DNA from: Treponema sp. Marseille-Q3903
GTDB lineage: Bacteria > Spirochaetota > Spirochaetia > Treponematales > Treponemataceae
Direction: 5' to 3'
Assembly: GCF_014334335.1 (NCBI RefSeq)
Contig: NZ_JACSEU010000001.1
Location: forward strand, 558,001 to 622,000
Length of the DNA: 64,000 nt
Positions 9,627-61,593 of the stretch are shown here, in pieces; positions within the stretch are counted from its first letter, which is position 1; the number at the start of each line of letters is the position of its first letter. A program made the position numbers and the translations under genes. Under the pieces are notes generated by a model. That model worked only from the letters and a program-made list of their open reading frames with translations, had not been told where the DNA came from and did not search any database.

Positions 9627-9632
9627 GTTATA

Positions 9633-9638
9633 AATATA
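9633..9638 (-). promoter_or_regulatory. -10 box abutting the TSCPD gene start
   Basis: TATATT, 6 nt before the ATG, with TTGTTC 17 nt further upstream as a weak -35. There is no Shine-Dalgarno site between. Confidence 0.35.
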
Positions 9639-9698
9639 ATCTAATTAAAGGGATTGAACAAGGAAAATATTGACAGGAAGATTGTGAAACGCTGCCGT

Positions 9699-11027
9699 CT
9701 AAATAGATTTCAGGTCTTCAACATCGTCGTCGTTATAGATGTAATCGTTGTATTTTGAGAGAACAAGGCTGAAATCAACTTGAAGAAGCGCCTGCAACTG
9801 TGAAAGCTCCTCTAACAGCTGGTCCATATTGGTTTGAACATATTTTACTATTGAAGGGTCGAGTTCTCCGTTTTCTGCCATGCTTGTAATAATAGAAATC
9901 GTTTTGTCTTTTGAAAATTCATCTTTGTAACTTCGCCTGTCGTTCAAAGCGCTTATGATATCTGCAACTGTTAAAATTCTCTGAATTAAATTGAGCTGTT
10001 CTGCATTAAGATGCTGTGGGTACCCGTTTCCGTTCAATTTTTCATGATGGCGGTAAACGTTTTCGAGGATATCTTGCGGAACATTTCCATTTAGAATCCT
10101 TTTTGAATGATTTACGTGGTGCCTCATGATTCCCATATCTTCTGGGGAGAGTTTTCCCGGAAACTCTAGGATGCGTGCAGGAGTTGCCATTTTTCCTACA
10201 TCGTGCAAAATAGCGCTTGTGAGCAAGTCCGACATCTGTCTTGCATTAAGCTGCATTCTTTTACCGAGCGACATCGCATAGCACGAAGTGTTTATAGAAT
10301 GCGTCATTGTATAAGTGCTTTTAAAATCAAGTAAATATATCAGCAGATATTGAAACTTTAAGTTTTCTTCTTCTGTAAAACTCTGTTCATATATAAACGA
10401 AGAAAGCGTGTCTTCATAAGTTCCGTTCCAAATTTCTTTGAGGACGGCATCATCTTTGTTTATATCTTTAAAAATTTCAACGTATTCAGGGTCAAGGAAT
10501 CCCGGTGCAATGTCGTCAATGTTCTTTGGCATAGGAGTATTGGGATTTTTATAAACATATTCGCTGATTCTTGCGGCTAGATATATAACGCCTTTATATG
10601 TGCTTTGGTAATGTTCCTCTTTTAGTTTTTGATTGAACGGTTCTGTAAAATGCTCAATAGACTCGGCATCTTCGCCTATTGGAGTCATGTATTTAAGATA
10701 ATATCCTGCAAAAACATATTTGCTCGTTGTATCTTTGTCTGTTGAAAAAAAATCAGGATTGTGCCCGTACGGATTATAATTGAAATATAAATCTTCGCGG
10801 AAAAACCCGAGCGTATGGAACAGAGCGAGCAAAAGAAGATTTTTTTTGCTGCATCGATTATTGATCGTGCATTTTTTTGCAATTTTTATGGAAATATAAG
10901 TTGTCCTGATGCTGTGATATATTATCTCGCGGTTTATACAGGCAAGCATTTTTATTGCGATGTGAATTATTTTATCTGTTGTAAGGATTCTTTTTAATTC
11001 TGCAACTTCTTTAACTAGAGATTCCAT
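9699..11027 (-). CDS. HD-GYP phosphodiesterase with a degenerate N-terminal HD copy
   Basis: A 442-residue cytoplasmic protein. The C-terminal half is an HD-GYP domain, the family that hydrolyses cyclic di-GMP: HD at 275-276 (AILHDVGKM), H303-H304, HHE at 327-329, GNGYP at 333-337 and VAD at 354-356. The N-terminal half repeats the same pattern in weakened form: HSIRTTYISIKIAKK near 38, ALFHTLGFF with HT in place of HD at 71-72, and AARISEYVYK near 151. This looks like an internal duplication with a dead first copy. No receiver or membrane sensor is present. Likely a cyclic-di-GMP signalling enzyme; the substrate is inferred. Confidence 0.85.
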   Translation of the reverse strand: MESLVKEVAELKRILTTDKIIHIAIKMLACINREIIYHSIRTTYISIKIAKKCTINNRCSKKNLLLLALFHTLGFFREDLYFNYNPYGHNPDFFSTDKDTTSKYVFAGYYLKYMTPIGEDAESIEHFTEPFNQKLKEEHYQSTYKGVIYLAARISEYVYKNPNTPMPKNIDDIAPGFLDPEYVEIFKDINKDDAVLKEIWNGTYEDTLSSFIYEQSFTEEENLKFQYLLIYLLDFKSTYTMTHSINTSCYAMSLGKRMQLNARQMSDLLTSAILHDVGKMATPARILEFPGKLSPEDMGIMRHHVNHSKRILNGNVPQDILENVYRHHEKLNGNGYPQHLNAEQLNLIQRILTVADIISALNDRRSYKDEFSKDKTISIITSMAENGELDPSIVKYVQTNMDQLLEELSQLQALLQVDFSLVLSKYNDYIYNDDDVEDLKSI

Positions 11028-11096
11028 CTTTTATTATTATCTTCTTGTTTTTGAAAAAACACAAGGACAGATATCTTAGTGTTGCACTTTCCGAAA

Positions 11097-12011
11097 TCAA
11101 TTATCAGAAATGAGCTTTTTTAGAGTGTAGTCTTTCTGTCTCCAGTTTTTGTCGATTTTTACTTGAAGGTCAAGGTCGATTTTCTGTATATATATTTCGC
11201 TCAGTTTTTTAATAGCGGCAAGCCTTATTTCTTTGATTTTTGAAGCGCCTTTTCCTATCACAATTCCTTTTTGGCTTTCGCGTTCAACACACAAAAATGC
11301 GCGAATCCAAAGTTTTTTGCCTTCATTGCGGTGCTCAATATCTGCTACTTCGACGTAAACGGAATGTGGAATTTCATCTTGGAGCCGATTTATAGCTTCT
11401 CCACGTATAACTTCGCATACACGAAAAGTTAAATCTTGATCAGTGTAAAGTTCTTCGTCGTATAGAGGCTCGCCTTCCGGTGCGATGTCGTACAATGCTC
11501 GCAAAACTTCGTTTATTCCTGTATCTTTTTCTGCGGAAATTTCAAAGATACGGTCTTTTGGAATTTCAGGCAGAGTTTCTTTTATAAATTGACGGACAGG
11601 AATTGGCTTTGACAAATGAGAATCTGCCTTGTTTATTGCAACGACAGTTTTTTGCTGAAGATTTTTGAGAAGTTGTGCAGTCAGATCTTCTTCTTTGCCT
11701 GTCTGGCGCGTTGAATCGATTATGTAGAGGACACAGTCTATATCGTCTAGCTGAGATTCAGTTATATCTTTGAGCCGCAGATTCAGTTTTTTTTCCGAAT
11801 CGTGGTAGCCCGGAGTGTCTATAAAAATTAGCTGTCCAAAAGATGTGTTGACAATTCCTTTGATTGCGTTGCGTGTTGTCTGGGGAATTGCCGAAACAAT
11901 GCTTACAGGTTCCTGACAAGCTGTGTTCAAAAAAGTCGATTTTCCTGCACTTGGCCGCCCGATAATTGCAACGACGGCGGTCTTTAATATTCCTTTGTTT
12001 TCTTCAGCCAT
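11097..12011 (-). CDS. era: GTPase Era
   Basis: A 304-residue GTP-binding protein needed for 16S rRNA maturation and 30S assembly. G1 is GRPSAGKST at 18-26 (an SA variant of the usual NV), G3 is DTPGYH at about 62-67 and G4 is NKAD at about 127. A KH RNA-binding domain follows, with GKGASKIKEI near 265. I chose the ATG at 12011 because AAGGA lies just before it; a further upstream start at 12038 would overlap galE by 19 nt. It lies 8 nt downstream of galE and is probably in the same operon. Confidence 0.95.
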   Translation of the reverse strand: MAEENKGILKTAVVAIIGRPSAGKSTFLNTACQEPVSIVSAIPQTTRNAIKGIVNTSFGQLIFIDTPGYHDSEKKLNLRLKDITESQLDDIDCVLYIIDSTRQTGKEEDLTAQLLKNLQQKTVVAINKADSHLSKPIPVRQFIKETLPEIPKDRIFEISAEKDTGINEVLRALYDIAPEGEPLYDEELYTDQDLTFRVCEVIRGEAINRLQDEIPHSVYVEVADIEHRNEGKKLWIRAFLCVERESQKGIVIGKGASKIKEIRLAAIKKLSEIYIQKIDLDLQVKIDKNWRQKDYTLKKLISDN

Positions 12012-12019
12012 ATAAGTCC

Positions 12020-13003: not shown

Positions 13004-13429
13004 TTATTTGTAATATATTGCGATTGCAATGTATCTAGGTTCATGTTTATTTTTTTTGTCTGCAATGTGCACCCAAAACTCGTCATATAATTTAAAACTT
13101 TCAGATATGCTTTTTGAATCAGATTCAAGATTTCTTTCCGCCTGATCGCTGTTGACTCCTTTTCCGGTAAAAATCAGAAGCTCTCGACCGTACAATTCAG
13201 GAATCGTTTTTCCTATAGCGTCGATTTTACCATCAATTGCGTGTTCAATCCATAGAGGCAATTCTGAGCCAAACCCCTTGTATTTCCAGTAATCAAAACG
13301 TAACGTTTTGCTGTTTGCATTGTTTCTTTTAGTGTTGGCAGCCGATAAAGTTGTTGCACAGCCTGCAAGCATAAAACTTGAAGTGAAAATTAAAATCAGA
13401 GGTAAAGAAAGATACAGTATCTTTTTCAT
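13004..13429 (-). CDS. Putative lipoprotein of unknown function
   Basis: A 141-residue protein with signal peptide and lipobox LAGC (Cys about residue 23), so an envelope lipoprotein. The mature part is polar, with a central conserved-looking block (LWIEHAIDGKIDAIGKTIPELYGRE in two parts) that I cannot assign. I chose the ATG at 13429; a TTG at 13447 has no ribosome site and overlaps the promoter. An extended -10 (TGCTAAAAT) ends 8 nt before this ATG, so the message may be nearly leaderless. galE lies 21 nt downstream. Confidence 0.7.
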   Translation of the reverse strand: MKKILYLSLPLILIFTSSFMLAGCATTLSAANTKRNNANSKTLRFDYWKYKGFGSELPLWIEHAIDGKIDAIGKTIPELYGRELLIFTGKGVNSDQAERNLESDSKSISESFKLYDEFWVHIADKKNKHEPRYIAIAIYYK

Positions 13430-13437: not shown

Positions 13438-13446
13438 ATTTTAGCA
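13438..13446 (-). promoter_or_regulatory. Extended -10 promoter of the 13004-13429 lipoprotein gene
   Basis: TGCTAAAAT ends 8 nt before the ATG, with no Shine-Dalgarno site between. The same nonamer precedes leuA and the double-receiver gene. Confidence 0.5.
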
Positions 13447-13471: not shown

Positions 13472-13501
13472 TTGAATTATCGACCTTTTTTAAGGTAAAA
13501 T
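13472..13501 (+). promoter_or_regulatory. Promoter of the TPR lipoprotein gene
   Basis: TTGAAT at 13472-13477, an 18-nt spacer and TAAAAT at 13496-13501. The ATG is 9 nt past the -10, so the predicted leader is at most a few bases. Confidence 0.6.
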
Positions 13502-13510: not shown

Positions 13511-13954
13511 ATGAAAAAAAATTTTAGACTTGTATTAGTGCCTTTTATTTTGTCATCTTTTGTCTTTATTTCCTGCGCATCTATAAAAGAGATTCCAGAT
13601 GATAAAACTGCGGCTCAAATCATTCAGATGGGGCAAAATGCCGCTTTTGCATCTGACTATAAATCAGCGGAATTTTGTTATAACACGGCAATCGAACGAT
13701 TTGGGACAGATCCGTCTGCTTATTTGGAAGCAAAATATGAATTAGGCAGATGCTATCTTAAACAGAAAAAATACGAAAAATCTTATCAGATAATGACGGA
13801 ACTTCTCGAGTTATATGATGTCCATGGGACTGCTTTACCGGGAGCTTACAAAAAGCTGAGTCAAATTTGCATCTCACAGATTCCTGAAAAAAAACTTGCT
13901 GATATTCAAGCAAAACAAAAAACAAAATCTTCTAATCTTTCGGCAACAGAATAG
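13511..13954 (+). CDS. Lipoprotein with tetratricopeptide-like repeats
   Basis: A 147-residue protein. The signal peptide ends in the lipobox FISC (Cys about residue 22). The mature part has helical pairs of TPR type: AAFASDYKSAEFCYNTAIERF near 46 (first half of a repeat) and YELGRCYLKQKKYEKSYQIM near 76. Such proteins are usually scaffolds at the inner face of the envelope. Its last 23 nt overlap the end of the convergent VWA gene. It is transcribed divergently from the lipoprotein gene at 13004-13429. Confidence 0.75.
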   Translation: MKKNFRLVLVPFILSSFVFISCASIKEIPDDKTAAQIIQMGQNAAFASDYKSAEFCYNTAIERFGTDPSAYLEAKYELGRCYLKQKKYEKSYQIMTELLELYDVHGTALPGAYKKLSQICISQIPEKKLADIQAKQKTKSSNLSATE

Positions 13955-18010: not shown

Positions 18011-18859
18011 TCAGAGCGATAAAATAAACCAGTTCAATTTTTCAAGGCTTTCATCATCAAGAAAAACATATTCTCCGGGCTTAAGAGCTTTGTCAAGTTC
18101 AAGCTTCCCGATCGAAATTCGTTTTAAAAAAACAACTTTATTGCCGGCTGCAGCGAACATCCTTTTTACTTGATGGTATTTCCCCTCGTGAATTGTGAGA
18201 AGCGCTGCGGTGTAATCATCTTTGTTGAAAGATTTAGATTCAAGCTTGTTGTAAATTTCTTGAATTGAAGAGTTTTCTGTGTATTCTTTTATTTGAGATT
18301 TAGTCGCCCATTTTACATCTGCCGGTTCACACTTAAACCCTGCTTCGTTGTCGTCAGGACCGACTTCAATTCCTTCTGCAAATAATTTTTCTATTTCTTT
18401 TTTTCTTTCGTCAGTTTCTTTATGTTCGAGGACACAAAAATATGTCTTTCCTATGTGAGATTTTGGTGAAATCAATCGGTGAGTGAGTTCTCCATCTGTT
18501 GTAAAAATAAGAAGTCCTTCAGTGTCCATGTCGAGACGGCCGACTAAGTGCAGTTTGTCTTCCAGATAAGGAGTACGCATATCATCAGCAAGTAAATCAA
18601 AAACAGTCTGATGTTCGCCATCTTTGTTTGTTGAAACTGTATGCATTATCTTATTCATCATAAGATAAATGTGTTTGTGAATGCTGATTTCTTTGTCATC
18701 GATGGCGATAGAGTCGTTTTCGAAATCTATCCCGAAAGATGGATCTGAAATTCTAGTCCCATTGACTGTGACTTTTGAATTGCGTAAAAGTTTTTTGATG
18801 TCTTTCCTAGAGCCGAAGCCTTCGTGTGAGAGCAATTTATCTAGTCTTTGTTTAGCCAT
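18011..18859 (-). CDS. RsuA/RluB-family 16S/23S rRNA pseudouridine synthase
   Basis: A 282-residue enzyme that converts a uridine in rRNA to pseudouridine. The N-terminal 60 residues are an S4 RNA-binding domain (RLDKLLSHEGFGSRKDIKKL). The catalytic aspartate lies in GRLDMDTEGLL at about residue 103. A charged insert near residues 175-200 makes it longer than E. coli RsuA. Which U it modifies cannot be told. TAAAAT lies 6 nt before the ATG and there is no Shine-Dalgarno site. Confidence 0.9.
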   Translation of the reverse strand: MAKQRLDKLLSHEGFGSRKDIKKLLRNSKVTVNGTRISDPSFGIDFENDSIAIDDKEISIHKHIYLMMNKIMHTVSTNKDGEHQTVFDLLADDMRTPYLEDKLHLVGRLDMDTEGLLIFTTDGELTHRLISPKSHIGKTYFCVLEHKETDERKKEIEKLFAEGIEVGPDDNEAGFKCEPADVKWATKSQIKEYTENSSIQEIYNKLESKSFNKDDYTAALLTIHEGKYHQVKRMFAAAGNKVVFLKRISIGKLELDKALKPGEYVFLDDESLEKLNWFILSL

Positions 18860-18865
18860 AGAAAT

Positions 18866-18871
18866 ATTTTA
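18866..18871 (-). promoter_or_regulatory. -10 box abutting the pseudouridine synthase start
   Basis: TAAAAT, 6 nt before the ATG; no ribosome site between. The -35 is unclear. Confidence 0.35.
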
Positions 18872-26933: not shown

Positions 26934-26944
26934 TGTTTTCACTT

Positions 26945-27030
26945 GCCGGGATGGCGGAATTGGTAGACGCCCAGGACTTAAAATCCTGTGCCGAGCAATC
27001 GGCGTGCCGGTTCAATCCCGGTTCCCGGCA
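26945..27030 (+). tRNA. tRNA-Leu (anticodon UAA)
   Basis: An 86-nt class II tRNA. The acceptor stem GCCGGGA pairs with TCCCGGC. The anticodon loop CTTAAAA gives UAA. The long variable arm has stem GCCGA/TCGGC with loop GCAA, and the T-loop is TTCAATC. CCA is not encoded. Discriminator base A at 27030, as expected for leucine. A strong promoter precedes it and a terminator follows. Confidence 0.97.
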
Positions 27031-27033
27031 AAG

Positions 27034-28977: not shown

Positions 28978-30681
28978 TTAGATGCCTGACAATCCTTGCT
29001 TAAAATTGATAGCCGAAACGACCGCCGCAATTCCCGCTCTTCCGACGTTTGAACTTTTCCCGACTCCCCATACTTGCTCGCCATTTTCCTTTGTAATCCT
29101 GACGTAAGCCATAGCTTGAGTGTCGGAGCCCGTTCCAACAGAATGTTCATGAAACGATGTTATGTTGAATTTTGGAACAGGGGATTTTTTTAAGGCGAGG
29201 ACGAAAGCGTCTAGAGGCCCGTTTCCTGTTGCGGCAACTGCGTAACGCTTTCCTTGCCACTCGATTGTAGCCATTCCCGCTACCTGCTCTGAAAAATCAG
29301 AACCGCGTTCGCCTTCAATATGTTTTTCCGTGATTTCAAGCACATTGAGAGGCGATTTTGTGTTGAGCCATTTTTTTGAAAAAATATCAAAAATCTCAGA
29401 CGGCTTGAGCTCTCGCTGAAGTTTGTCTGCATGAACTTTGATAATTTCTCCGATAACAGGGTGCATCGCTTTTGGCGTAATGATTCCAAAATTCGATTCC
29501 AAAATAAATGCAGCGCCACCTTTTCCGCTCTGGCTGTTTATCCTTATGATGTCAGCGTATTCACGTCCAATGTCGCGAGGGTCAATCGGAAGATACGGAA
29601 TATCCCATAAATTAGCTTTTGATTTATCTTTGATATCTGCACGCGCTTTCATAGCTTTTCTGATTGCATCTTGATGAGAACCGCTGAAAGCTGTGTAAAC
29701 AAGTTCTCCCGCGTATGGACTTCGAGGGTGAATCGGCATTCCGGTAAATCGTGTGTATTCTTCTGAAACATATTCAAGGTTGGAAAAATCGAGCTGCGGA
29801 TCAACACCTTGAGTGTACATATTCAAAGCCGCAGTCACAATGTCGAGGTTTCCTGTTCTTTCTCCGTTTCCAAACAGACAACCTTCAACTCTTTCCGCTC
29901 CTGCAAGAAGTCCGAGTTCACATTGGGCAACGCTTTCTCCGCGGTCGTTGTGATTGTGAAGTGAGATTATGCAGCATTTCCGGTTTTTGATATGCGAACA
30001 AAAGTATTCAATGCAGTCAGCAAACTGATTAGGCAGACAGCATTCTACAGTAGTCGGAAGGTTGAGTATTATTTTGTTTTCTTGCGATGGATTCCATTCG
30101 TCCATAACAGCTTCACATATCTCAATAGAATAATCAATTTCTGTCTGCGAAAAATTTTCGGGCGAGTACTCAAGTTGAATATTTATTTCAGGATATTGCT
30201 GCATATATTTTTTTACAGATTTAACACCGTTTACAGCGAGCTCTATTATCTCTTTTTTTGATTTTTTAAAGTTGTATTTTCGCTGGGCAGGCGAAGTCGC
30301 ATTGTAGATATGAAATATCACATTTTTTGCGCCTTTTAAAGATTCAAATGTCTTTTTTATAAGCTGGTCTCGTACCTGAGTTAAGACTTGAATAGAGACG
30401 TCATCCGGAATGCGTTTATTTTCAATCAGAGTCCGTACAAAGTTAAATTCCGTATCCGATGCCGACGGAAAACCGACTTCAATCTGTTTAAAACCGAGCC
30501 TGACGAGCATGTCGAAATATTCGAGTTTGTGTTCAATCCCCATCGGATTCACAAGCGCCTGATTCCCATCTCGCAGGTCAACGGAACACCAGACAGGTGC
30601 GTTTTTGATTATCTTTGACGGCCACTTCCTGTTTGAAAGCGGAACAGATTCAAAATGTGTGTATTTTCCTTCAGGTTTCAT
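28978..30681 (-). CDS. leuA: 2-isopropylmalate synthase
   Basis: A 567-residue enzyme that condenses 2-oxoisovalerate and acetyl-CoA, the first committed step of leucine synthesis. The catalytic barrel has DLRDGNQA near 35, the metal motif HNHND near 243 and GNGERTGN near 273. The C-terminal 130 residues are the LeuA allosteric domain that binds leucine (GNGPLDAF). The length and the N-terminal WCSVDLRDGNQAL place it in the longer 'type 2' group. No leuBCD lies nearby. An extended -10 (TGCTAAAAT) ends 6 nt before the ATG with no ribosome site, so the transcript is probably leaderless. Confidence 0.93.
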   Translation of the reverse strand: MKPEGKYTHFESVPLSNRKWPSKIIKNAPVWCSVDLRDGNQALVNPMGIEHKLEYFDMLVRLGFKQIEVGFPSASDTEFNFVRTLIENKRIPDDVSIQVLTQVRDQLIKKTFESLKGAKNVIFHIYNATSPAQRKYNFKKSKKEIIELAVNGVKSVKKYMQQYPEINIQLEYSPENFSQTEIDYSIEICEAVMDEWNPSQENKIILNLPTTVECCLPNQFADCIEYFCSHIKNRKCCIISLHNHNDRGESVAQCELGLLAGAERVEGCLFGNGERTGNLDIVTAALNMYTQGVDPQLDFSNLEYVSEEYTRFTGMPIHPRSPYAGELVYTAFSGSHQDAIRKAMKARADIKDKSKANLWDIPYLPIDPRDIGREYADIIRINSQSGKGGAAFILESNFGIITPKAMHPVIGEIIKVHADKLQRELKPSEIFDIFSKKWLNTKSPLNVLEITEKHIEGERGSDFSEQVAGMATIEWQGKRYAVAATGNGPLDAFVLALKKSPVPKFNITSFHEHSVGTGSDTQAMAYVRITKENGEQVWGVGKSSNVGRAGIAAVVSAINFKQGLSGI

Positions 30682-30687: not shown

Positions 30688-30716
30688 ATTTTAGCATTGA
30701 AAAACGATACTTTCTA
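30688..30716 (-). promoter_or_regulatory. Promoter of leuA
   Basis: On the minus strand TAGAAA (30711-30716), 17-nt spacer, TAAAAT (30688-30693) with TGC directly before it (30694-30696). The ATG lies 6 nt beyond the -10. Confidence 0.6.
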
Positions 30717-34420: not shown

Positions 34421-34426
34421 TATTCT
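34421..34426 (+). promoter_or_regulatory. -10 box abutting the GH8 gene start
   Basis: TATTCT ends 6 nt before the ATG; no Shine-Dalgarno site. It suggests transcription separate from the TRAP operon and a leaderless start. Confidence 0.35.
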
Positions 34427-42046: not shown

Positions 42047-43296
42047 CAGTTTGTGCCTTTTAGAACGCTAAGAGATTTTTGGACAAGAACGTTTGGCTTT
42101 TGAGGTTTTAGAATATAACTTGCAGCTCCATAACTTAGAACTTTGATAACGATGTCTTTTTGCAAGCTCGGGGAATACACGATTACCGGCGGTGCATGGG
42201 GGGTTGAATGCATAAACTGTAGTAAAGAGAGCCCTGTTTGGTCTTTCAATAAAACATCGAGTATTATCAAGTCGAACTTATTGTCACTGTAATCTTTTTT
42301 AAAATCATTGCCGTTTGTATAATATGAACACGACGCCCCTGCCTGCTCAAAAACTCTCTTTGTAATTGCAAGGCAAATTTCATCGCTGTCGATTATCGCG
42401 ACGTTCAGCACAGTTCCATCTTTTTTGCTTGAATTACTGCTTGACCTGTCTGAAAAAAATCTTGTATCGATAGAATCATTTTCGTGTTCGTCTTCAGAAG
42501 ATGGCTTCAATATGCAGTCAGTGATTAAATTAGGCACATCAGTCACAATCGAAGTGTCTACAAGGTCTGTCAGAACTCGTGAGATGTTTGTTGCCATTTC
42601 AATCCCTGCATAGTTTGGATGACCTGCAAGCATTTCTTTTACAAAAGGGCTAAAAGAAAGAATTTTTATATTTTTATTGTGAACTTTCGGACAAGCAAGA
42701 ACATTGTCAATTAAAAACTCAAGATTAAAGCCGTCCACAAAAGTCAGCTCTAAATTAGTAAGCATGATGATGATTTTCGGGCTTTCGATGTTTTCTTTTT
42801 CGATCATCTCAGAAAGTTTAAACTGCAGCAGAGCGATTTTTTCACGATTCATGCCGAGTGCAAGTTCAATAAAGATTATGTTGTTGTTGCGGTGAAGATC
42901 GAGTACACATGGAGTCGTGTCGAGAGAAAGAGGAACGTGTACAACGTGCCCAATCGACCTAAAGAATATGTCGAATTGAATCGGTTTTTCAAAATATTTA
43001 ATTACACCGTATTTAGCGATTGATGCGATGAATGTGCGGCTGAGGCGCGGTCCTGTCACAATTACAGGAATTCCGGCACAGTTCGGATCGCGAATTTTCT
43101 TTTCAAGAAATTCCATCTGATCCGAGTTGTCATCTTCCATATCGAGGATTATAAGGTTTGGCAGCGACGTAATCATCTTTGTGTAAACATCGCGATTTTC
43201 TTGAATTGCAATAACATCTATGTGATCTTCTTCGAGTTTTTGTTTTAAATAATCGCGAAATAACTGATGATTATCTGCAATAAGTACCTTTTTCAT
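42046..43296 (-). CDS. Signalling protein with two receiver domains flanking a STAS-like domain
   Basis: A 416-residue protein with three parts. Residues 1-120 form a receiver domain (KVLIADNHQ; phospho-acceptor Asp in LIILDMEDD; Lys in EKP). Residues about 135-255 form an alpha/beta domain resembling STAS anti-anti-sigma folds (PKIIIMLTNLELTFVDGFNLEFL). Residues about 290-416 form a second receiver (VAIIDSDE; LIILDVLLKD; ILKP). No DNA-binding or output enzyme domain is seen, so output is probably through protein contact. I start at the ATG at 43296 because the receiver begins there and TGCTAAAAT ends 7 nt before it. Confidence 0.8.
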   Translation of the reverse strand: MKKVLIADNHQLFRDYLKQKLEEDHIDVIAIQENRDVYTKMITSLPNLIILDMEDDNSDQMEFLEKKIRDPNCAGIPVIVTGPRLSRTFIASIAKYGVIKYFEKPIQFDIFFRSIGHVVHVPLSLDTTPCVLDLHRNNNIIFIELALGMNREKIALLQFKLSEMIEKENIESPKIIIMLTNLELTFVDGFNLEFLIDNVLACPKVHNKNIKILSFSPFVKEMLAGHPNYAGIEMATNISRVLTDLVDTSIVTDVPNLITDCILKPSSEDEHENDSIDTRFFSDRSSSNSSKKDGTVLNVAIIDSDEICLAITKRVFEQAGASCSYYTNGNDFKKDYSDNKFDLIILDVLLKDQTGLSLLQFMHSTPHAPPVIVYSPSLQKDIVIKVLSYGAASYILKPQKPNVLVQKSLSVLKGTN

Positions 43297-43303: not shown

Positions 43304-43312
43304 ATTTTAGCA
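43304..43312 (-). promoter_or_regulatory. Extended -10 promoter of the double-receiver gene
   Basis: TGCTAAAAT ends 7 nt before the ATG, without a ribosome site. Confidence 0.5.
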
Positions 43313-43399: not shown

Positions 43400-43408
43400 T
43401 GATATAAT
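43400..43408 (+). promoter_or_regulatory. Extended -10 promoter of the zinc-ribbon gene
   Basis: TGATATAAT ends 6 nt before the ATG at 43415; no Shine-Dalgarno site. Confidence 0.5.
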
Positions 43409-43861: not shown

Positions 43862-43867
43862 TAAAAT
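43862..43867 (+). promoter_or_regulatory. -10 box abutting the purD start
   Basis: TAAAAT ends 6 nt before the ATG; TTTTCA lies 17 nt upstream as a weak -35. The nine bases AGCGATATG here also span the ctpA start. Confidence 0.4.
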
Positions 43868-43873: not shown

Positions 43874-45214
43874 ATGAATATAATAGTGGTAGGCAGTGGT
43901 GGGCGCGAACACGCTATTTGCTGGAAATTAGCTCAGAGTTCTAGTGTTGATAAAATTGTAGTTGTGCCAGGCAACGGTGGAACCGCAACTGAAGATAAAT
44001 GTGTAAATATTGATCCCAAAGAAGTTGATTACATCTCGAAAGACGAAAATCCTTATATTGCGATTGCTAAACACGAAAATTGCCGTATGGCTATCATCGG
44101 TCCTGAAGATCCTTTGGCTGAAGGTCTGTCAGATGAATTCTGGAAAGCGGAAATTCCTTGTGTCGGACCTAAAAAAAACGGTACGCAGCTTGAAGCGAGC
44201 AAAGATTTTTCTAAAAACTTCATGAAAAAATACGGAGTCGCATGTGCTGACAGCGAAACTTTTACAAATGAACAGGCAGCCTGCGAATATATAAAAAAAC
44301 ACGGTGCTCCAATCGTCATAAAAGCCGATGGTCTTGCAGCCGGAAAAGGTGTTGTAGTCGCTGCAACAGTTGACGAAGCTCTCGTCGCCGTAAAAGATTT
44401 GATGGAAGGCGGACGTGTAGGGGACGCAGGTAAAAAACTTGTGATTGAAGACTATCTTCAAGGTGTAGAAATTTCGATTTTAGCTGCTGTTTCCGTAACT
44501 CCTGAATATGCCGTAAGTGGAAGTGCTGCCATCATTCCGTTTCTACCTGCGCGAGACCACAAGCGATTGAACGACGGGGCGAAGGGACCAAACACCGGCG
44601 GAATGGGTGCAGTCTGTCCGCTTGACGATGTTACAGATAAAACAATTGAGCAATTCAGAAAAGACATCCTTGAGCCGACGTTGAACGGGCTTATCAAAGA
44701 AAAACTCGATTATCGTGGGTTTATTTTCTTTGGCGTAATGGTCACTCCTAAAGGCCCGAAACTTTTGGAATACAATGTCCGACTTGGCGACCCGGAAACG
44801 CAGGCTGTTCTCCCACTGATGGACTTTGACTTTGTTGCAATGTGCACTTCTATTTTGAACGGAACTCTCAAAGAATTTGAATTTAAATGGAAACCGGGAT
44901 ATCAGGTGGCTCCGGTTGTCGTAAGCGAAGGTTATCCAGGAGAATACAAAAAAGGACTTGGAATCACATTCAACAAGCCTTTGTTAAATGCAAGCACCGC
45001 AAAAGTGTTTATCGCCGGAGCTGTTCCCGGTCGTAGAGGAGAATGTGATTTGCTTACAAGCGGAGGACGAGTTCTTTCCTGTTCTGCATACGGTTCGTCA
45101 TTTAAAGAAGCGTGGGTAAATGCATATCAGGGAATAAGTGCAATTAAGTTTGAAGGTGCATTCTTCAGAAAAGATATCGGATTGCCTGGCGCCGCAGAAA
45201 GCGGAAAACTTTAA
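43874..45214 (+). CDS. purD: Phosphoribosylamine--glycine ligase
   Basis: A 446-residue ATP-grasp enzyme, the second step of purine synthesis. The N-terminus MNIIVVGSGGREHAI is the family signature, the ATP-grasp region has KADGLAAGKGV near 154 and the metal-site motif LEYNVRLGDPE lies near 300. Purine synthesis is otherwise unlinked here, apart from a probable purN end at the right edge. The gene's 3' end is 7 nt from that of convergent glutamine synthetase. It seems to lack a ribosome site. Confidence 0.95.
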   Translation: MNIIVVGSGGREHAICWKLAQSSSVDKIVVVPGNGGTATEDKCVNIDPKEVDYISKDENPYIAIAKHENCRMAIIGPEDPLAEGLSDEFWKAEIPCVGPKKNGTQLEASKDFSKNFMKKYGVACADSETFTNEQAACEYIKKHGAPIVIKADGLAAGKGVVVAATVDEALVAVKDLMEGGRVGDAGKKLVIEDYLQGVEISILAAVSVTPEYAVSGSAAIIPFLPARDHKRLNDGAKGPNTGGMGAVCPLDDVTDKTIEQFRKDILEPTLNGLIKEKLDYRGFIFFGVMVTPKGPKLLEYNVRLGDPETQAVLPLMDFDFVAMCTSILNGTLKEFEFKWKPGYQVAPVVVSEGYPGEYKKGLGITFNKPLLNASTAKVFIAGAVPGRRGECDLLTSGGRVLSCSAYGSSFKEAWVNAYQGISAIKFEGAFFRKDIGLPGAAESGKL

Positions 45215-50771: not shown

Positions 50772-51920
50772 TTAAATCTTAAATCCCTGCTCTGCGGCTT
50801 TTATAAGCTTTGATTTTAGGAGATTGTTTTCTTTGCGCAACTGTGTCAGTTCGTATTGCTGTGTCTTTATCATCTCTGCAAGTTCACTTATTGTGAGAGA
50901 GCCGCCTGAAACAAGATCATCAATTCCTGAAAGACGGAAATTAAAATCGTCGTTTGCATCTTCTTCGACACCGCTAAAGTTATCATTTGAAAAACTATCC
51001 GGACTGAAATCGGAATCAAATGAGTGAGGCTTTGAAGATATAATCTTGTCTGCTATGCGATAAATCGCCTGCCCGAGAACGGATTGAGGCTTGTAAACGA
51101 CGACAGGAAGCTGTGATGCAAGAGCTTTGTCCTGAAGCATATCACGGTACATAAGTCCTAGGTATTCAATCTCAAGTCCAAGATATTGATTGCATGACGA
51201 TTTTATTCTCTGTGCTCTGTCTGCTTCCTGAGGATTTTCAATCATGTTCATGACAAGACGAGGACGGAACTGCTGCATTCTGTTTATAAACAACTGTGTT
51301 GTCTGAGGGTCTGTCACACCAAGCCCTTGAATGAGTTGAGGGATATAGAGTTTTTGCATCTGCTCTGTATTCTGCTTGAACTGATCGAGGTATGAGCGAC
51401 CTGGAGTTCCGCGTTTAAAAGTTGTGTACAAAAGGCGGAAAACGGCGTTTTTTAAAAACAGATATCCGTTTAGAGTTGCTGTGACAGCAGGAGCCGAAAC
51501 AAGGATTCCCTGCGGAGAGAGAAGGAACATATCCAAAATAAACTGATGAGTTCCTGCTCCAAGATCTAGAATAATATAATCAGTATCGATATTTTTGAGG
51601 TTTCTGATCAATTTTACTTTTTGGACATGCTTCAGAGAAGTTAAATCAGGAATCTGGCTATCGCCGGCAATAAAACTGACGTTCTGGTAATCAGTCGGCT
51701 GGATGATATCTTTGAATTCGCTTTTTTCAGTAAACCATGAACCCAAACTCGCTTTTCCGGGATGCTGACCTATTACGAGATGAAGATTTGAAGCACCTAA
51801 ATCGAGGTCTGCGAGTACAACCCGTTTTCCCTGCTGTCCAAGTGCGATTGCTAAATTTGCGGCAAGAAGGCTTTTTCCTACTCCACCTTTTCCGCTGGCA
51901 ATTGGTATAATCTGCGACAT
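50772..51920 (-). CDS. MinD/ParA-family ATPase
   Basis: A 382-residue P-loop ATPase with the deviant Walker A GKGGVGKSLL at 10-19, switch I DLDLGASN near 38 and switch II LDLGAG near 118. It resembles MinD and FlhG, which place cell-division or flagellar machinery, but it has an extra C-terminal tail of about 80 acidic residues ending in a coiled-coil-like segment. The partner is not identifiable from context (lgt and uppP follow). An extended -10 (TGATATAAT) ends 7 nt before the ATG. Confidence 0.88.
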   Translation of the reverse strand: MSQIIPIASGKGGVGKSLLAANLAIALGQQGKRVVLADLDLGASNLHLVIGQHPGKASLGSWFTEKSEFKDIIQPTDYQNVSFIAGDSQIPDLTSLKHVQKVKLIRNLKNIDTDYIILDLGAGTHQFILDMFLLSPQGILVSAPAVTATLNGYLFLKNAVFRLLYTTFKRGTPGRSYLDQFKQNTEQMQKLYIPQLIQGLGVTDPQTTQLFINRMQQFRPRLVMNMIENPQEADRAQRIKSSCNQYLGLEIEYLGLMYRDMLQDKALASQLPVVVYKPQSVLGQAIYRIADKIISSKPHSFDSDFSPDSFSNDNFSGVEEDANDDFNFRLSGIDDLVSGGSLTISELAEMIKTQQYELTQLRKENNLLKSKLIKAAEQGFKI

Positions 51921-51927: not shown

Positions 51928-51936
51928 ATTATATCA
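51928..51936 (-). promoter_or_regulatory. Extended -10 promoter of the MinD-like gene
   Basis: On the minus strand TGATATAAT ends 7 nt before the ATG; no Shine-Dalgarno site. Confidence 0.5.
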
Positions 51937-51998: not shown

Positions 51999-52004
51999 TA
52001 CAAT
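51999..52004 (+). promoter_or_regulatory. -10 box abutting the ctpA start
   Basis: TACAAT ends 8 nt before the ATG at 52013; no ribosome site. The -35 is weak. Confidence 0.4.
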
Positions 52005-52012: not shown

Positions 52013-53458
52013 ATGAAAAAAATCATTAAGACAATTTATTTTGCAATACTTCTTCTTGCATCACAATGCTTTGCAGAATCTTCAATCGGGAATGATACAA
52101 AAGTTTCCAGTTTCCAATATGTAAAAAAACTCAATTCCGTTTTTGATTTCGTTCTTCAAAATTATGTCGAAGAACTCGACCCTAAAATCCTTTATGAAGG
52201 TGCATTAAAAGGAATGATGGATTCAATAGGAGATCCATATACAGTTTATCTTGATATGAATACGATGCGCGAGTTGAATGATACTACTACAGGTGCGTTT
52301 GGAGGCGTCGGTCTTTCAATCTCAAAAGCATCAGAATCGACTGCAGAAAAACCTGCTTATGTTGAAGTTGCTTCTCCAATCGAAGATACTCCCGGTGCAA
52401 AAGCCGGAATTCAATCAGGGGATTTGATAACTGCCGTAGATGGTCTTCCAACTGGACCAATGACTATGAACGACGTTCTTCTGCATCTCAGAGGAGAAGT
52501 CGGTACTCCTGTGACTGTATCTATCCTACGCGGTTCGAATATAAAGTTTGATGTAACTTTGATTCGTGCGTTGATTGAAGTCCCGACTGTAAAATACGGA
52601 ATGATTGAAGGATCAAAAACAGGTTATGTACGGTTGATTCAGTTTACGCCGGAGACTGCTTCGCGCCTTCAAGTTGCGATAGATTTTTTTAAATCTTCCG
52701 ATTACAAAGGGCTTATCGTAGATTTGCGCGATAATCCGGGCGGACTTATCACAAGCGCCGTAGACGTGGCGAACAAGTTTATAAGTCAAGGACCTATAGT
52801 TTCTACAAAAAGCCGCCTTCTTTTTGAAAATCATCAGTTCACATCTTCAAAAGATACAACAACGGTAAATACTGATATTCCGATTGTAGTTCTTATAAAT
52901 AAAGGTTCTGCGAGCGCTTCCGAAATTGTCTCAGGGGCACTAAAAGATTATCACATCGCTTATCTTGTCGGTGAAAGAACTTACGGAAAAGGTTCCGTTC
53001 AGCAAGTAATTCCTCTCAGCAATACAGATGGAATAAAACTGACGATGGCTCGGTATTACACTCCAAGCGATGTAAATATCGACAAAATCGGGATTCCACC
53101 TGATCTTGAAGTTTTGAATATGCCGGTTTTGTCAAAACTGCAGGAAGAAAAATACGTTGAGCTTATGAAATCAAATGAAATTTCAAAAATTGTAGACAGC
53201 AATAAAGATATGAAAGAATCTGATATTGCAGCAGCGGCAAAAAAACTCTCAGCCGCTTATCCGCTCGATGAACGGCTTTTGCGCAGGCTCATAAGAATTC
53301 AAGTTCAGAAAAATCATCCAGCTCCGCTTTATGATATGGACTGGGATTTACAGTTGAAACAAGCAATCAGTATAATAAACGACGGAAAATTTAAAAGACT
53401 TGTTTCCAATACAAAGACATTGAAGCAGCTCCAAGAAGAAGTCGCTTCCGCCAAATAA
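52013..53458 (+). CDS. S41-family C-terminal processing protease
   Basis: A 481-residue exported serine protease with signal peptide (cleavage near CFAES). A PDZ domain spans about 95-185. The Ser-Lys catalytic dyad lies in NKGSASASEIVSG (Ser about 300) and GERTYGKGSVQ (Lys about 325). Such proteases trim or degrade periplasmic proteins by their C-termini. It is the first of a plus-strand run with rsmE, a WecG-like gene and a sigma-54-type ATPase. It has a -10 just before its start. Confidence 0.93.
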   Translation: MKKIIKTIYFAILLLASQCFAESSIGNDTKVSSFQYVKKLNSVFDFVLQNYVEELDPKILYEGALKGMMDSIGDPYTVYLDMNTMRELNDTTTGAFGGVGLSISKASESTAEKPAYVEVASPIEDTPGAKAGIQSGDLITAVDGLPTGPMTMNDVLLHLRGEVGTPVTVSILRGSNIKFDVTLIRALIEVPTVKYGMIEGSKTGYVRLIQFTPETASRLQVAIDFFKSSDYKGLIVDLRDNPGGLITSAVDVANKFISQGPIVSTKSRLLFENHQFTSSKDTTTVNTDIPIVVLINKGSASASEIVSGALKDYHIAYLVGERTYGKGSVQQVIPLSNTDGIKLTMARYYTPSDVNIDKIGIPPDLEVLNMPVLSKLQEEKYVELMKSNEISKIVDSNKDMKESDIAAAAKKLSAAYPLDERLLRRLIRIQVQKNHPAPLYDMDWDLQLKQAISIINDGKFKRLVSNTKTLKQLQEEVASAK

Positions 53459-56202: not shown

Positions 56203-58047
56203 AAGTGAATTTCCGAATTCTTCTGCTTTGACTTTTCCAAGCCCGTATATGTTCGACAGTTCGCTTCGAGATGCCGGCTTTTTTGCTGCAAGATCTAAAA
56301 TCGTCTTGTCACCAAAAATCATGTAAGGTGCTGCGTTCAAATCGTAAGCTTTTCGTGTTCGCCACATTTTTAACGAGGAAATTATTTTTTCTGCCTGAAA
56401 ATCGTCGTCGGCTGGTTCTTCCGCAATGATTTGCTCGCCTGTTTTGCCGCAAGTTCCTTTCAGACGTCTATTTTTCTTAGGAAACGATTTGATCACATGT
56501 CTGATCGGAAGCTTGAGGGAGGTGCGTGTTGAAATAAATGTTTTCCCGAGCACGGAGAGTGTCAGCACATTGTATTCACCTGTCTTAATCAGATAATTTT
56601 CACTGATTAGAGCGTCTGTCAATTCCAGCCACTCTTTTTTTGAATATTCCGTCCCGATTCCCCAAGTAGTCAGTTTGTCGTGCCCGTTCTCTATAATTCT
56701 TTTGTTTTTTGAACCGAGCAATACGTCTGCTATGTAGTTTGCGCCGAAACGCTGTTGCGTGCGGATTATACAGCAAAGGAGTTTTTGTGCTGGAATGGTG
56801 ACATCTTTTAATGGAATGCCGCCGATACTGCAAATATCACAACAGCAATTCGCATCTTCGTTTTGCGAGGTGTATTGTTCTCCAAAATAAGCAAGGAGAG
56901 CTTTGCGGCGGCAGCTGCGCGTTGTCGCGAAAGAAACCATATTTTGCAACAAAATCTCAGATTTTTCCGGGTCGGCAGCGTCTTCAAAAAAGAAACGAAC
57001 TTTGTGAACGTCGGCTGGGCTGTACAAAAGCAATGCTGATGATGGCAGCCCGTCGCGTCCTGCTCTCCCGATTTCCTGATAATATTCTTCTACAGATTTA
57101 GGGATATCGTAATTTATAACATAACGCACGTTCGGTTTGTTTATTCCCATTCCGAATGCAATTGTTGCGACAATAATTTGCACTTCATCGTTGATAAAAA
57201 GATTTTGATTTTTGGAGCGATTTTCGTCCGAAAGCCCTGCGTGGTATTTGAGAACCGAATATCCAAGGTTGTCTAGCTTTTTTGTAAGTTCGTCAACTTG
57301 CTTGCGCGAATAGCAATATATGATTCCGCTTTCACCTGGATGCTTTTTTATAAATTGAATCACTTGCTCAAGACCGTTTTGTTTTTGTTGAATTTCAAGG
57401 AAGATGTTTTCACGATTAAAGCTTGATATGAAAATGGAGGGTTTTTTCATTCCAAGATTTTGAATTATGTCTGTCCGAACGTGTTCTGTAGCTGTTGCGG
57501 TCAGCGCCAGCATGACTGCCTTTGGAAAAAAGTTTCTTATTGAATAAATTTCAAGATAGTCGGGACGGAAGTCGTGCCCCCATTGAGAGACGCAGTGTGC
57601 TTCATCGATTGTGATGCAGCTTACTTTTATATCCGGCGATGAAAGAATTTCACGAATTCTGGCAGTCGCAAGCCCTTCCGGTGAAACGTAAACAATCTTC
57701 ACTTTGTTTGATTTTATTTCATCTACGGCAGCAATATAATCTTCCCATGAAAGAGAGCTGTTTAAAAATACTGAATGAATTCCAACAGTTTCAAGCGAAC
57801 GAACTTGATCTTGCATAAGAGAAATCAAAGGGGAGACGACGACTGTTATGCCTTCTTTTATCAATGCAGGCAGCTGATAACAAAGAGATTTTCCGCCTCC
57901 TGTAGGCATTACCGCAAGAGTGTCTTTTCCGTTCAGTACATTTTTGATTATTTCTTTTTGAAGAGGGCGAAATGAATCGTAGCCGAAAATTGTTTTAAGC
58001 AGTAACTCTGGTTTAGCACCAACAAAAGCATCATTTACTATTTTCAC
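56173..58047 (-). CDS. recQ: ATP-dependent DNA helicase RecQ
   Basis: About 624 residues. Walker A MPTGGGKSLCYQ near 44, DEAH box near 138, QWGHDFRPDY near 147, HAGL and the IGRAGRDG motif VI near 332. RQC zinc cysteines (C-x3-C type) near 378-400 and an HRDC domain at the C-terminus (KPASRSELSNIYGLGK). I place the start at the GTG at 58047, which leaves 21 residues before the FGYDSFRP motif as in E. coli RecQ. The frame is open to an ATG at 58086, but that stretch holds an extended -10 and the tRNA promoter of the other strand. Confidence 0.93.
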   Translation of the reverse strand: MKIVNDAFVGAKPELLLKTIFGYDSFRPLQKEIIKNVLNGKDTLAVMPTGGGKSLCYQLPALIKEGITVVVSPLISLMQDQVRSLETVGIHSVFLNSSLSWEDYIAAVDEIKSNKVKIVYVSPEGLATARIREILSSPDIKVSCITIDEAHCVSQWGHDFRPDYLEIYSIRNFFPKAVMLALTATATEHVRTDIIQNLGMKKPSIFISSFNRENIFLEIQQKQNGLEQVIQFIKKHPGESGIIYCYSRKQVDELTKKLDNLGYSVLKYHAGLSDENRSKNQNLFINDEVQIIVATIAFGMGINKPNVRYVINYDIPKSVEEYYQEIGRAGRDGLPSSALLLYSPADVHKVRFFFEDAADPEKSEILLQNMVSFATTRSCRRKALLAYFGEQYTSQNEDANCCCDICSIGGIPLKDVTIPAQKLLCCIIRTQQRFGANYIADVLLGSKNKRIIENGHDKLTTWGIGTEYSKKEWLELTDALISENYLIKTGEYNVLTLSVLGKTFISTRTSLKLPIRHVIKSFPKKNRRLKGTCGKTGEQIIAEEPADDDFQAEKIISSLKMWRTRKAYDLNAAPYMIFGDKTILDLAAKKPASRSELSNIYGLGKVKAEEFGNSLLQIISAELN

Positions 58048-58053
58048 ATAGTT

Positions 58054-58062
58054 ATTATAGCA
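58054..58062 (-). promoter_or_regulatory. Extended -10 promoter of recQ
   Basis: On the minus strand TGCTATAAT ends 6 nt before the GTG at 58047. Confidence 0.5.
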
Positions 58063-58111: not shown

Positions 58112-58194
58112 GCCGGAGTGGTGGAATGGTAGACACGACAGACTCAAAATCTGTTGCGAGCAATCGTGTAAGAGTTCAAGTCTCTTCTCCGGTA
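58112..58194 (+). tRNA. tRNA-Leu (anticodon CAA)
   Basis: An 83-nt class II tRNA. The acceptor GCCGGAG pairs with CTCCGGT, with a G-U wobble at the first pair. The anticodon loop CTCAAAA gives CAA, with stem ACAGA/TCTGT. The variable arm is TGCGA/TCGTG with loop GCAA, and the T-loop is TTCAAGT. CCA is not encoded. It sits between recQ and comM, both on the other strand. Confidence 0.95.
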
Positions 58195-59796: not shown

Positions 59797-59914
59797 CGCT
59801 TATCTCCCAAAAAATCTCTATATTAATATTTGCCGCGATATTCGATTTTTGACAAAATTTTGACGAAAAAAACAAAAAATATGATAAATTAATATCAAAG
59901 AGATAAAACGCGTG

Positions 59915-59966
59915 TTTTGTTGCTGTTCCTTTAATCGGCGTGATGAGAAACTTCAAAGCAACAAAA
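59915..59966 (+). promoter_or_regulatory. Inverted repeat in the leader of the 59991 gene
   Basis: TTTTGTTGCT (59915-59924) pairs perfectly with AGCAACAAAA (59957-59966) around a 32-nt loop, ending 24 nt before the ATG. No T-run follows. It may be an operator or an mRNA stem. Confidence 0.35.
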
Positions 59967-59990
59967 TATTCAGCTGATTGAGATTTGATA

Positions 59991-60605
59991 ATGAAAAGAT
60001 TTTGCTTACTTTTGACATCATTATTTTTTTCGGCAGTTGTGTTTGCACAGCCTGTTTCAGGCTCATTTTACGACTTTATAGACCAGACACAAGAAATGCC
60101 GGTAAAACCGAATCCTACAACTTTGATAATCTACAGGCTCGAAAGCCGTTACGAAATGAACGAAATCCGCTGTTGGCTTAAACTTGAAGATGAAAATGGA
60201 AACGACGTTACATACACTTCTGCAAAAGCCGCTTATGAATGGCCTGTTTATAAATACTGGGATCCGTATAAGACAAACAGGACACTTCCTCAGACTTTTA
60301 CCCAACGAGAACCCGATTTGATTCCTTACCGCAAAAAATATTATCTAAGCGGTGGAATGGCAATGCATCTAAATCTGAAAAAAGGAAAATACAAGATAAG
60401 TTTGTACACGCCAATCGATCAGCAAAATAATTTTGAATATCCGACAGAAGGGCAAAGAGCGTTTGAATGGCATTCTAACGTCTTTGAATACGATACGGAA
60501 AATCCTACAAATGTATTATTTGTGACGCCAGTAACCGATGAAAACGGATTTTACAATGGCGGCTGGCTCATAGATTACAAGCAGCCGGTTCAAGTCACAC
60601 GTTGA
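59991..60605 (+). CDS. Exported protein of unknown function
   Basis: A 204-residue protein with a clear signal peptide (MKRFCLLLTSLFFSAVVFAQ) and a beta-rich mature domain, rich in Tyr, Trp and Asn, with the feature FEWHSNVFEYDTENPTNVLF near 150. I do not recognise a family. It is probably periplasmic or outer-membrane associated. I start at the ATG at 59991; an in-frame TTG six bases upstream gives a longer n-region. The ribosome site is weak. Divergent from comM, convergent with the E2-like gene. Confidence 0.7.
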   Translation: MKRFCLLLTSLFFSAVVFAQPVSGSFYDFIDQTQEMPVKPNPTTLIIYRLESRYEMNEIRCWLKLEDENGNDVTYTSAKAAYEWPVYKYWDPYKTNRTLPQTFTQREPDLIPYRKKYYLSGGMAMHLNLKKGKYKISLYTPIDQQNNFEYPTEGQRAFEWHSNVFEYDTENPTNVLFVTPVTDENGFYNGGWLIDYKQPVQVTR

Positions 60606-60614
60606 TGAATATTT

Positions 60615-61475
60615 TTAATAAGCAATTTCTTCTGAAAAAGGTTTTTCAAGCAGCGACGGATTTTCTATCAATTTTTTCAAAAGTTTGACAGATTTTGTGT
60701 AATAATATCCGTCAGCAATTCGCTCATCAATTGTCAGCGATATCTGAATCGTCTTTTTGATTTCCATCTTGCCTTTTGAGTCAAAATAAGGTCTTTTATC
60801 TTTTTTCCCTACGACCATGAAAATAGAAGTTGTTCCCCAGTTTGTAAGGTGGTGATAGCCTATATCAAGTCCTATTGAACCTAGGTTTGAAAGTATTACA
60901 GATGTGTAAAAAGGATCAGTCTTTATGATTGAATTCGGCATTAAACCGTGTCTGTCAAGCCATCGAGCTACTTTACTTATAATGTGCTTGAGTCCGATTT
61001 TTTGAATAAGCCTCATCCCTTTTGTAGACGGATCATCTTGTTTTTTGCAAAGTTTAATCTGCTCGTTTATCTTATTGTGGAGCGTCTCAAGCGTATCTGA
61101 CGGAACTGCGACAATGCGTGCAAGAGTTTCTTCACTTTCGTCGGATAAAGATTTTTTTACAACAAATCCGGCTGTCACTTCGTTCCGCTGATAATAATTT
61201 TTATTTGCAACAAATCTGTTTAACTTTGTCCTGAGTGTGATTGTCTTAAGGATAGCCGCTATAATCAGCTGGAAAATCGAATATTGCGCATCAGTTTTTT
61301 CTTTTAATTCTTCATTTTTTGCCTTAATATAAGCTTCTGCATTTTGAAGATTGATTTTAAATGACATATATGCTTCACAAGTAGTCCTGTCCGGCCACAT
61401 CAGGGGCATGCAGTAGTGCATGCAATCGATATCACGGATTAGTTTTCCATCTTTTCGGTCACCAATTTTTTTCAT
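60615..61475 (-). CDS. Stand-alone 2-oxoacid dehydrogenase E2-type acyltransferase domain, altered active site
   Basis: A 286-residue protein matching the CAT-like catalytic domain of E2 acyltransferases (SNLGSIGLDIGYHHLTNWG near 190; the terminal LTIDERIADG). It has no lipoyl or subunit-binding domain. The active-site motif HxxxDG reads ExxxDG: the His is Glu, so normal acyl transfer is doubtful. It could bind a CoA ester or act as a non-catalytic protein. TATAAT ends 8 nt before the ATG. No E1 or E3 genes are nearby. Confidence 0.78.
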   Translation of the reverse strand: MKKIGDRKDGKLIRDIDCMHYCMPLMWPDRTTCEAYMSFKINLQNAEAYIKAKNEELKEKTDAQYSIFQLIIAAILKTITLRTKLNRFVANKNYYQRNEVTAGFVVKKSLSDESEETLARIVAVPSDTLETLHNKINEQIKLCKKQDDPSTKGMRLIQKIGLKHIISKVARWLDRHGLMPNSIIKTDPFYTSVILSNLGSIGLDIGYHHLTNWGTTSIFMVVGKKDKRPYFDSKGKMEIKKTIQISLTIDERIADGYYYTKSVKLLKKLIENPSLLEKPFSEEIAY

Positions 61476-61483
61476 ATAAAAAA

Positions 61484-61489
61484 ATTATA
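61484..61489 (-). promoter_or_regulatory. -10 box of the E2-like gene
   Basis: On the minus strand TATAAT ends 8 nt before the ATG; the spacer is T-rich with no ribosome site. Confidence 0.4.
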
Positions 61490-61558
61490 ATATAGATTTA
61501 TCTTTTTTTGTATAATTTTCATCTATTTCGATGCAGATGATATTCGCAAGAAGAAAAT

Positions 61559-61587
61559 TTGCGCAAATGTTTTTTTTCGCTTATTCT
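61559..61587 (+). promoter_or_regulatory. Promoter of cdd
   Basis: TTGCGC at 61559-61564, 17-nt spacer, TATTCT at 61582-61587. The ATG lies 6 nt beyond the -10. Confidence 0.45.
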
Positions 61588-61593
61588 ATAAAT

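Follow-up and report, generated by a model that had tools for sequence, protein, structure and literature searches.

Promoters of the sigma-70 type placed directly against start codons very probably yield leaderless mRNAs, as predicted from the DNA sequence, beside genes led by a Shine-Dalgarno (SD) sequence in Treponema sp. Marseille-Q3903. We analyzed a 64,000-nucleotide (nt) stretch of this genome, hereafter the window (contig positions 558001 to 622000, G000:C1, of a 2,513,301-base genome in 4 contigs), together with a larger sample of the same genome. The initial annotation had proposed leaderless genes on the basis of fourteen window genes with a −10 box just upstream of the start codon. 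This reading is supported by a genome-wide enrichment of such boxes, by a −35 element spaced 17 base pairs (bp) from them, by their concentration in genes that come first in a transcription unit, by the distribution of promoter-model sites between genes with and without an SD, and by conservation of the box and its spacing in front of four genes. Transcription initiates about 7 nt downstream of a −10, and a −10 ending 6 to 9 nt before the start codon would thus place initiation on, or a few nucleotides from, the first base of that codon. In the mechanism we propose, ordinary housekeeping promoters would carry their −10 hexamer at this distance, RNA polymerase would start at the first base of the start codon or one to two bases earlier, and the leaderless mRNA would be translated from its 5'-terminal AUG (GUG in recQ) without SD contact, while about half of the genes in the same genome would use SD-led initiation. 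The exact transcript 5' end and the entry of the ribosome are what we infer here, ribosome engagement by analogy with other bacteria.

The genome sample consisted of the window and 40 further stretches (864 kb of 2.51 Mb), in which 730 genes were scored. Gene starts were set blind to motifs, as the 5'-most ATG not past the best coding start, and were uncurated; since this choice favors ATG, GTG-started genes such as recQ were missed. A strict box was defined as a TA...T hexamer differing from TATAAT in no more than one position, and a loose box as TANNNT; unless stated otherwise, the boxes counted are those whose last base lies 6 to 9 nt before the start. Boxes were chosen solely by hexamer, by position relative to the start, and by the lack of an SD, so that the other features described below played no part in the selection. 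An SD preceded 351 of the 730 genes, in agreement with the initial estimate of about half. Among the 379 genes without an SD, 80 (21%) had a strict box, compared to a mean of 19.0 (standard deviation, 4.0; maximum, 31) in 300 dinucleotide shuffles of their upstream regions and to a mean of 16.7 genes in 4-nt bins at other distances. A −10 at 6 to 9 nt is thus present above chance, as in the leaderless (TA-led) genes of bacteria. The comparison with shuffled sequence had been named beforehand as a test on which the proposal could fail, and the proposal withstood it. The 80 genes contained 82 boxes, of which 31, 20, 18, and 13 lay at 6, 7, 8, and 9 nt, respectively. An alternative SD definition gave nearly the same count (81 of 364), and the excess over the shuffles corresponds to 8.2% of all genes, or about 1 in 12. 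Only 3 of the 351 SD genes had a strict box at 6 to 9 nt, a contrast that is weak alone, since an SD and a box at this distance compete for the same positions, which accounts for part of the low count.

It is exceedingly improbable that chance explains these boxes, with AT-rich upstream DNA supplying TANNNT hexamers anywhere and those near a start simply being noticed. The genome does have a GC content of only 38%, the leuA box is not conserved, and random sequence would account for some 17 to 19 of the 80 boxes, for which reason no individual gene is proven by its box. Against this stand the shuffle maximum of 31, a −35 at exactly 17 bp, a box conserved almost without exception in front of the MinD-like gene, and the lack of any excess in two AT-richer genomes (both described below). 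Chance is refuted as a general account; it may apply to single genes such as the GH8, rsuA-type, and leuA genes of the window.

The boxes were concentrated at genes that come first in a transcription unit. Among genes without an SD, a box preceded 36 of 98 divergently oriented genes, 25 of 99 genes following on the same strand after a gap of more than 60 nt, and 16 of 167 following after a gap of up to 60 nt; the other 15 genes sat at stretch ends. Over all genes, 63 of the 350 that come first in a transcription unit had a box, versus 17 of the 340 that closely follow another gene, with 40 genes at stretch ends having no context. For the first genes of transcription units, the excess amounts to about 14% (61 boxes minus 11.9 expected, of 350).

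We then aligned the DNA upstream of the 82 boxes. T, T, and G occurred in 76%, 56%, and 48% of cases at 23, 22, and 21 nt upstream of the box, which indicates a −35 hexamer with a 17-bp spacer. A −35 TTG with a spacer of exactly 17 bp accompanied 25 of the 82 boxes and one with a spacer of 18 bp accompanied 5, while spacers of 14, 15, 16, 19, and 20 bp accounted for 1, 1, 0, 1, and 3 boxes, respectively. Among boxes located elsewhere, 3 of the 35 at 0 to 4 nt and none of the 30 at 11 to 14 nt had this TTG at 17 bp. The extended −10, which the initial annotation had described as frequent, turned out to be a minority feature: it occurred in 11 of the 82 boxes versus 2 of 62 control boxes, although in 6 of the 14 listed genes, and we reject it as the main device. 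It is as a group that the boxes have the character of real promoters, namely, a −35 at 16 to 18 bp or an extended −10.

A promoter model, for which 72 boxes from the rest of the genome sample served as the training set, placed 58 sites at 6 to 9 nt in the 197 first genes of transcription units without an SD, a count that is partly circular since the training boxes came from these genes, and 2 in the 153 such genes with an SD, where the SD partly accounts for the low number by filling that place. In SD genes, the model sites lay mostly 20 nt or more upstream. These data also bear on the idea that the boxes are secondary promoters and that the main transcripts start upstream, carry a leader, and are translated independently of an SD, for example through ribosomal protein S1 on A/U-rich leaders. 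The first genes of transcription units lacking an SD do have 27 model sites at 20 to 39 nt and 18 at 40 to 59 nt, and S1-dependent initiation is discussed for genes without an SD in PMC5397173. However, no other distance bin contained as many sites as the 58 at 6 to 9 nt, not even that of 100 to 199 nt with 48, and the distance from box to start is itself conserved, which makes secondary promoters a very unlikely explanation.

Conservation was assessed with upstream sequences from 203 loci of the genus, excluding those of the genome itself and counting identical 30-nt upstreams once. Part of the loci were the best 30 matches for each gene, so that close relatives are favored, and as the species are related, the counts are not independent events. 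The strongest case was the MinD-like gene, with 105 matches, of which 3 could not be assigned and 80 had distinct upstreams. A strict box was present in 79 of the 80 and an extended −10 in 76, none had an SD, and control bins contained only 3 to 5 boxes each. Where the start of a relative was shifted downstream by one codon, the spacer was still 6 to 9 nt (25 of 25), indicating that the box moved along with the start. Among the named relatives with this gene are T. bryantii NK4A124, XBD1002, and B25 (87 to 88% identity), one assembly labeled T. bryantii (79%), and T. zioleckii and T. ruminis (60 to 61%), and relatives were also found in numerous assemblies of uncultured Treponema sampled from rumen, gut, and feces. 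These matches place our genome close to T. bryantii and suggest that it probably comes from a gut or rumen.

Three further genes behaved similarly. For purD (44 matches, 1 unassignable, 40 distinct upstreams), a strict box was found in 32 of 40 and TANNNT in all 40, with no SD, and the column consensus included a TTGAAA-like −35 at 17 bp. For recQ (47 matches, 12 unassignable, 27 distinct), 26 of 27 upstreams had the box and 21 an extended −10, again with no SD; the start codon was GTG in 22 and ATG in 5. For ctpA (81 matches, 51 unassignable, 21 distinct), the box was present in 18 of 21 and an SD in 1. Many other upstream columns varied widely, the upstreams of recQ being the most alike overall. 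In the comparison genes lgt and WecG-like, by contrast, none of 83 and none of 54 distinct upstreams had a strict box, versus an SD in 67 and 23, respectively. The spacing from box to start is thus conserved for the MinD-like gene, purD, recQ, and ctpA. Two sequence details concern these genes. In G128, G066, and G252, the purD alignments cross one in-frame stop (TAG, TAG, and TGA, respectively), which may reflect an alignment running beyond the end of the gene. At the recQ start (58044 to 58049), an out-of-frame ATG overlaps the GTG and is directly followed by TGA (ATGTGA); this arrangement looks incidental, since it occurs in 14 of the 27 distinct upstreams of relatives and is missing from the other 13.

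These alignments also bear on whether the starts were misassigned, that is, whether transcription begins at the boxes and the true start lies downstream behind an SD, leaving short leaders. Neither a four-base SD nor a start-adjacent −10 was found in 299 of the 730 genes (about 41%), and for 58 of them an in-frame start preceded by an SD lies downstream. Within 25 codons, such a start was present in only 4 of the 80 box genes, versus 24 of the 351 SD genes and 58 of the 299 others. In addition, homology in MinD-like, purD, and recQ reaches the first codons in most relatives, with the box distance kept. Misassignment may affect individual genes, whose starts were set automatically and not curated, yet as a general explanation it is hardly credible.

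Several observations, besides the expected chance boxes and the circularity of the model count, weigh against leaderless initiation or narrow its reach. Boxes at 8 to 9 nt could leave a leader of 1 to 3 nt. A T directly preceded the start in 50 of the 80 box genes versus 103 of the 299 other genes without an SD (P = 1e-5); it was also frequent in SD genes (169 of 351; P = 0.025 versus box genes), the gap narrowed among the first genes of transcription units (39 of 61 box genes versus 85 of 153 SD genes), and the relation was reversed in another genome of the genus, G120 (4 of 14 box genes versus 50 of 75 SD genes). Since this T is common in SD genes and reversed in G120, it is a weak point and carries little weight as support. 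For leuA (29 matches, 3 unassignable, 26 distinct upstreams), none of the 26 relatives had a strict box, 2 had TANNNT, and 16 had an SD, so that the spacing is not conserved and leuA is ruled out as a conserved leaderless gene. Because most of its relatives have an SD while its own upstream has an extended −10 and no SD, it is possible that leuA switched its initiation mode in this genome, possibly recently, or that its box arose by chance. Of 9 relatives of the zinc-ribbon gene, 3 had a strict box and 2 an SD, and for the TSCPD and rsuA-type genes, the box was absent in the single relative compared for each. No orthologue of the two lipoprotein genes or of the GH8, double-receiver, E2-like, and cdd genes was present among the loci compared.

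Weighing these data, we consider it likely that treponemes keep a gene-specific, long-conserved leaderless set beside their SD system, with the −10 tracking the start codon and with genes like leuA switching between modes; promoter and start codon would then evolve as one unit. The type of promoter differs within this putative set, purD having a −35 plus a −10, and the MinD-like gene and recQ an extended −10; recQ would in addition retain GTG as a leaderless start. Housekeeping genes are among the candidates, namely, those for SmpB, tRNA synthetases of the lysyl and prolyl types, QueA, RuvA, MurB, and PurD. No functional theme was seen among the top candidates outside the window, of which 20 of 24 were scanned with Pfam (the top-scoring ranks 18, 20, 22, and 23 being left out) and 18 of these 20 matched; the scanned candidates were a mixture of housekeeping, envelope, and regulatory genes.

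Within the window, the boxes reported for the fourteen genes were all found at the reported spacings, with coordinates confirmed. None of the fourteen has GGAG, GAGG, or AGGA 3 to 13 nt upstream of the start, as judged by eye, again as reported, and none thus qualifies as led by a purine-rich SD. On the minus strand, the TSCPD-domain gene (9384 to 9626; Pfam TSCPD) is preceded by TATATT at 9633 to 9638, at 6 nt, with a −35 TTGTTC at 17 bp. Of the two lipoprotein genes, that starting at 13429 (minus strand) has an extended −10, TGCTAAAAT, at 13438 to 13446, at 8 nt, and TTAACA at 17 bp, and that starting at 13511 (plus strand) has TAAAAT at 13496 to 13501, at 9 nt. The rsuA-type S4/pseudouridine synthase gene (18011 to 18859, minus strand) has TAAAAT at 18866 to 18871, at 6 nt, with a low promoter-model score of 5.5. 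The leuA gene (28978 to 30681, minus strand) has an extended −10, TGCTAAAAT, at 30688 to 30696, at 6 nt. For the GH8 gene (start 34433, plus strand), TATTCT at 34421 to 34426, at 6 nt, overlaps a TATATT at 8 nt, and the model score was again low (5.0). The double-receiver gene (ATG at 43296, minus strand), which encodes two Response_reg stretches, has an extended −10, TGCTAAAAT, at 43304 to 43312, at 7 nt, and the zinc-ribbon gene (start 43415, plus strand), which had no Pfam match and owes its name to the initial annotation, has an extended −10, TGATATAAT, at 43400 to 43408, at 6 nt.

The box of purD (43874 to 45214, plus strand) is TAAAAT at 43862 to 43867, at 6 nt. The MinD/ParA-like gene (50772 to 51920, minus strand) has an extended −10, TGATATAAT, at 51928 to 51936, at 7 nt, and diverges from ctpA (52013 to 53458, plus strand), whose box is TACAAT at 51999 to 52004, at 8 nt. 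The recQ gene (GTG at 58047, minus strand) has an extended −10, TGCTATAAT, at 58054 to 58062, at 6 nt. The E2/acyltransferase-like gene (60615 to 61475, minus strand) is preceded by TATAAT at 61484 to 61489, at 8 nt, and cdd (ATG at 61594, plus strand; Pfam cytidine deaminase) by TATTCT at 61582 to 61587, at 6 nt, with TTGCGC at 17 bp. Using the automatic caller, we found a strict box in 10 of the 30 window genes without an SD (shuffle mean, 2.2; maximum, 6) and in none of the 25 with one. All 10 belong to the fourteen, GH8 being scored through its overlapping TATATT and not through TATTCT. The caller missed the remaining four: another start was chosen for recQ and the double receiver, the zinc-ribbon gene was not called, and for cdd, a different start was picked and TATTCT fails the strict definition. 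The window also contains two tRNA-Leu genes, both on the plus strand, at 26944 to 27031 (anticodon taa) and 58112 to 58194 (anticodon caa).

We also analyzed other genomes of the phylum, using 150 to 200 kb per genome and 100 shuffles. Boxes were in excess in G120, of the same genus (14 of 95 genes without an SD; shuffle mean, 3.5; maximum, 9), in G213, of another genus of the family (12 of 76; mean, 2.9; maximum, 7), in G186 (9 of 80; mean, 1.2; maximum, 5), and in G084, of the same class, with 1.5 Mb and a GC content of 29% (16 of 102; mean, 5.9; maximum, 11), indicating that the pattern is not peculiar to our genome. In G018, of another genus, the 8 boxes in 75 genes were within the shuffles (mean, 3.1; maximum, 9), and 4 of the 8 had TTG at 17 bp. 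The two AT-richer genomes, G058 and G025 (both GC 27%), showed no excess (6 of 58; mean, 5.3; maximum, 11; and 3 of 89; mean, 4.1; maximum, 9, respectively). Whole-genome counts of TAWAAT-N6-ATG versus N14-ATG in 246 genomes of the phylum were mixed (199 versus 170 in our genome and, among other members of the genus, 119 versus 65 in G220 and 92 versus 116 in G157), with ratios of at most 1 in the inspected rows of groups f6 and f24; we set these crude counts aside, because G084, a member of f6, has an excess by gene-based counting. The leaderless habit probably extends to other groups of Treponema.

If these predictions are true, treponeme ribosomes would routinely start on a 5'-terminal AUG or GUG. 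Gene finders that assume an SD may then misplace such starts, and the position of the promoter could be used to check start-codon annotation in treponemes. The genus would also lend itself to comparison, since leaderless initiation of a given gene is retained, acquired, or lost within it, and the question could be addressed why certain genes remain leaderless when neighbors such as lgt remain SD-led.

The initial annotation had regarded the pattern as undescribed for treponemes. No report of leaderless Treponema genes or transcripts was found among the open papers listed; the extended −10 that the annotation included is a minority feature, and leaderless mRNAs are not new to spirochetes, having been mapped in Leptospira, cited for Borrelia, and predicted for some members of the phylum. 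In the literature on T. denticola start sites and promoters, PMC9481697 gives transcription starts mapped 14 bp and 124 bp from start codons. Two further papers were discarded, since "leaderless" refers to peptides without a leader sequence in PMC9200625 and is confined to the reference list in PMC12687308.

Among the closest parallels are the TA-led genes of Zheng et al. (2011; PMC3160421), predicted in 6 of 18 Spirochaetes genomes at a mean of 3.9% of genes (range, 1.8 to 6.9); the word Treponema was not found in the main text seen. Those genes share with ours a TANNNT/TATAAT box about 10 to 12 bp before the start, the absence of an SD, and an excess over dinucleotide shuffles, while their mean of 3.9% compares with an excess of about 8% here, obtained by different methods. 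In Leptospira interrogans, of the same phylum, primary starts were mapped no more than 10 bp from the start codon in 430 to 450 genes, and of the genes for which a primary start is known, about 70% are predicted to have an SD motif (Zhukova et al., 2017; PMC5243855). Leaderless transcripts are thus mapped there and predicted from sequence here; that study describes no conserved promoter motif besides sigma-54 sites, whereas we find a −35/−10 pair at 17 bp. Borrelia burgdorferi, also a spirochete but differing in organism and gene set, is cited as having many transcripts without a 5' untranslated region (Adams et al., 2017, in PMC6448022). In Deinococcus-Thermus, finally, a −10 a few base pairs before the open reading frame produces leaderless mRNA, and a −35 raises transcription (PMC12340547); such an arrangement concerns about 30% of open reading frames on average in that phylum, whereas in the AT-rich spirochete studied here it would serve a minority of genes, next to a complete SD system.

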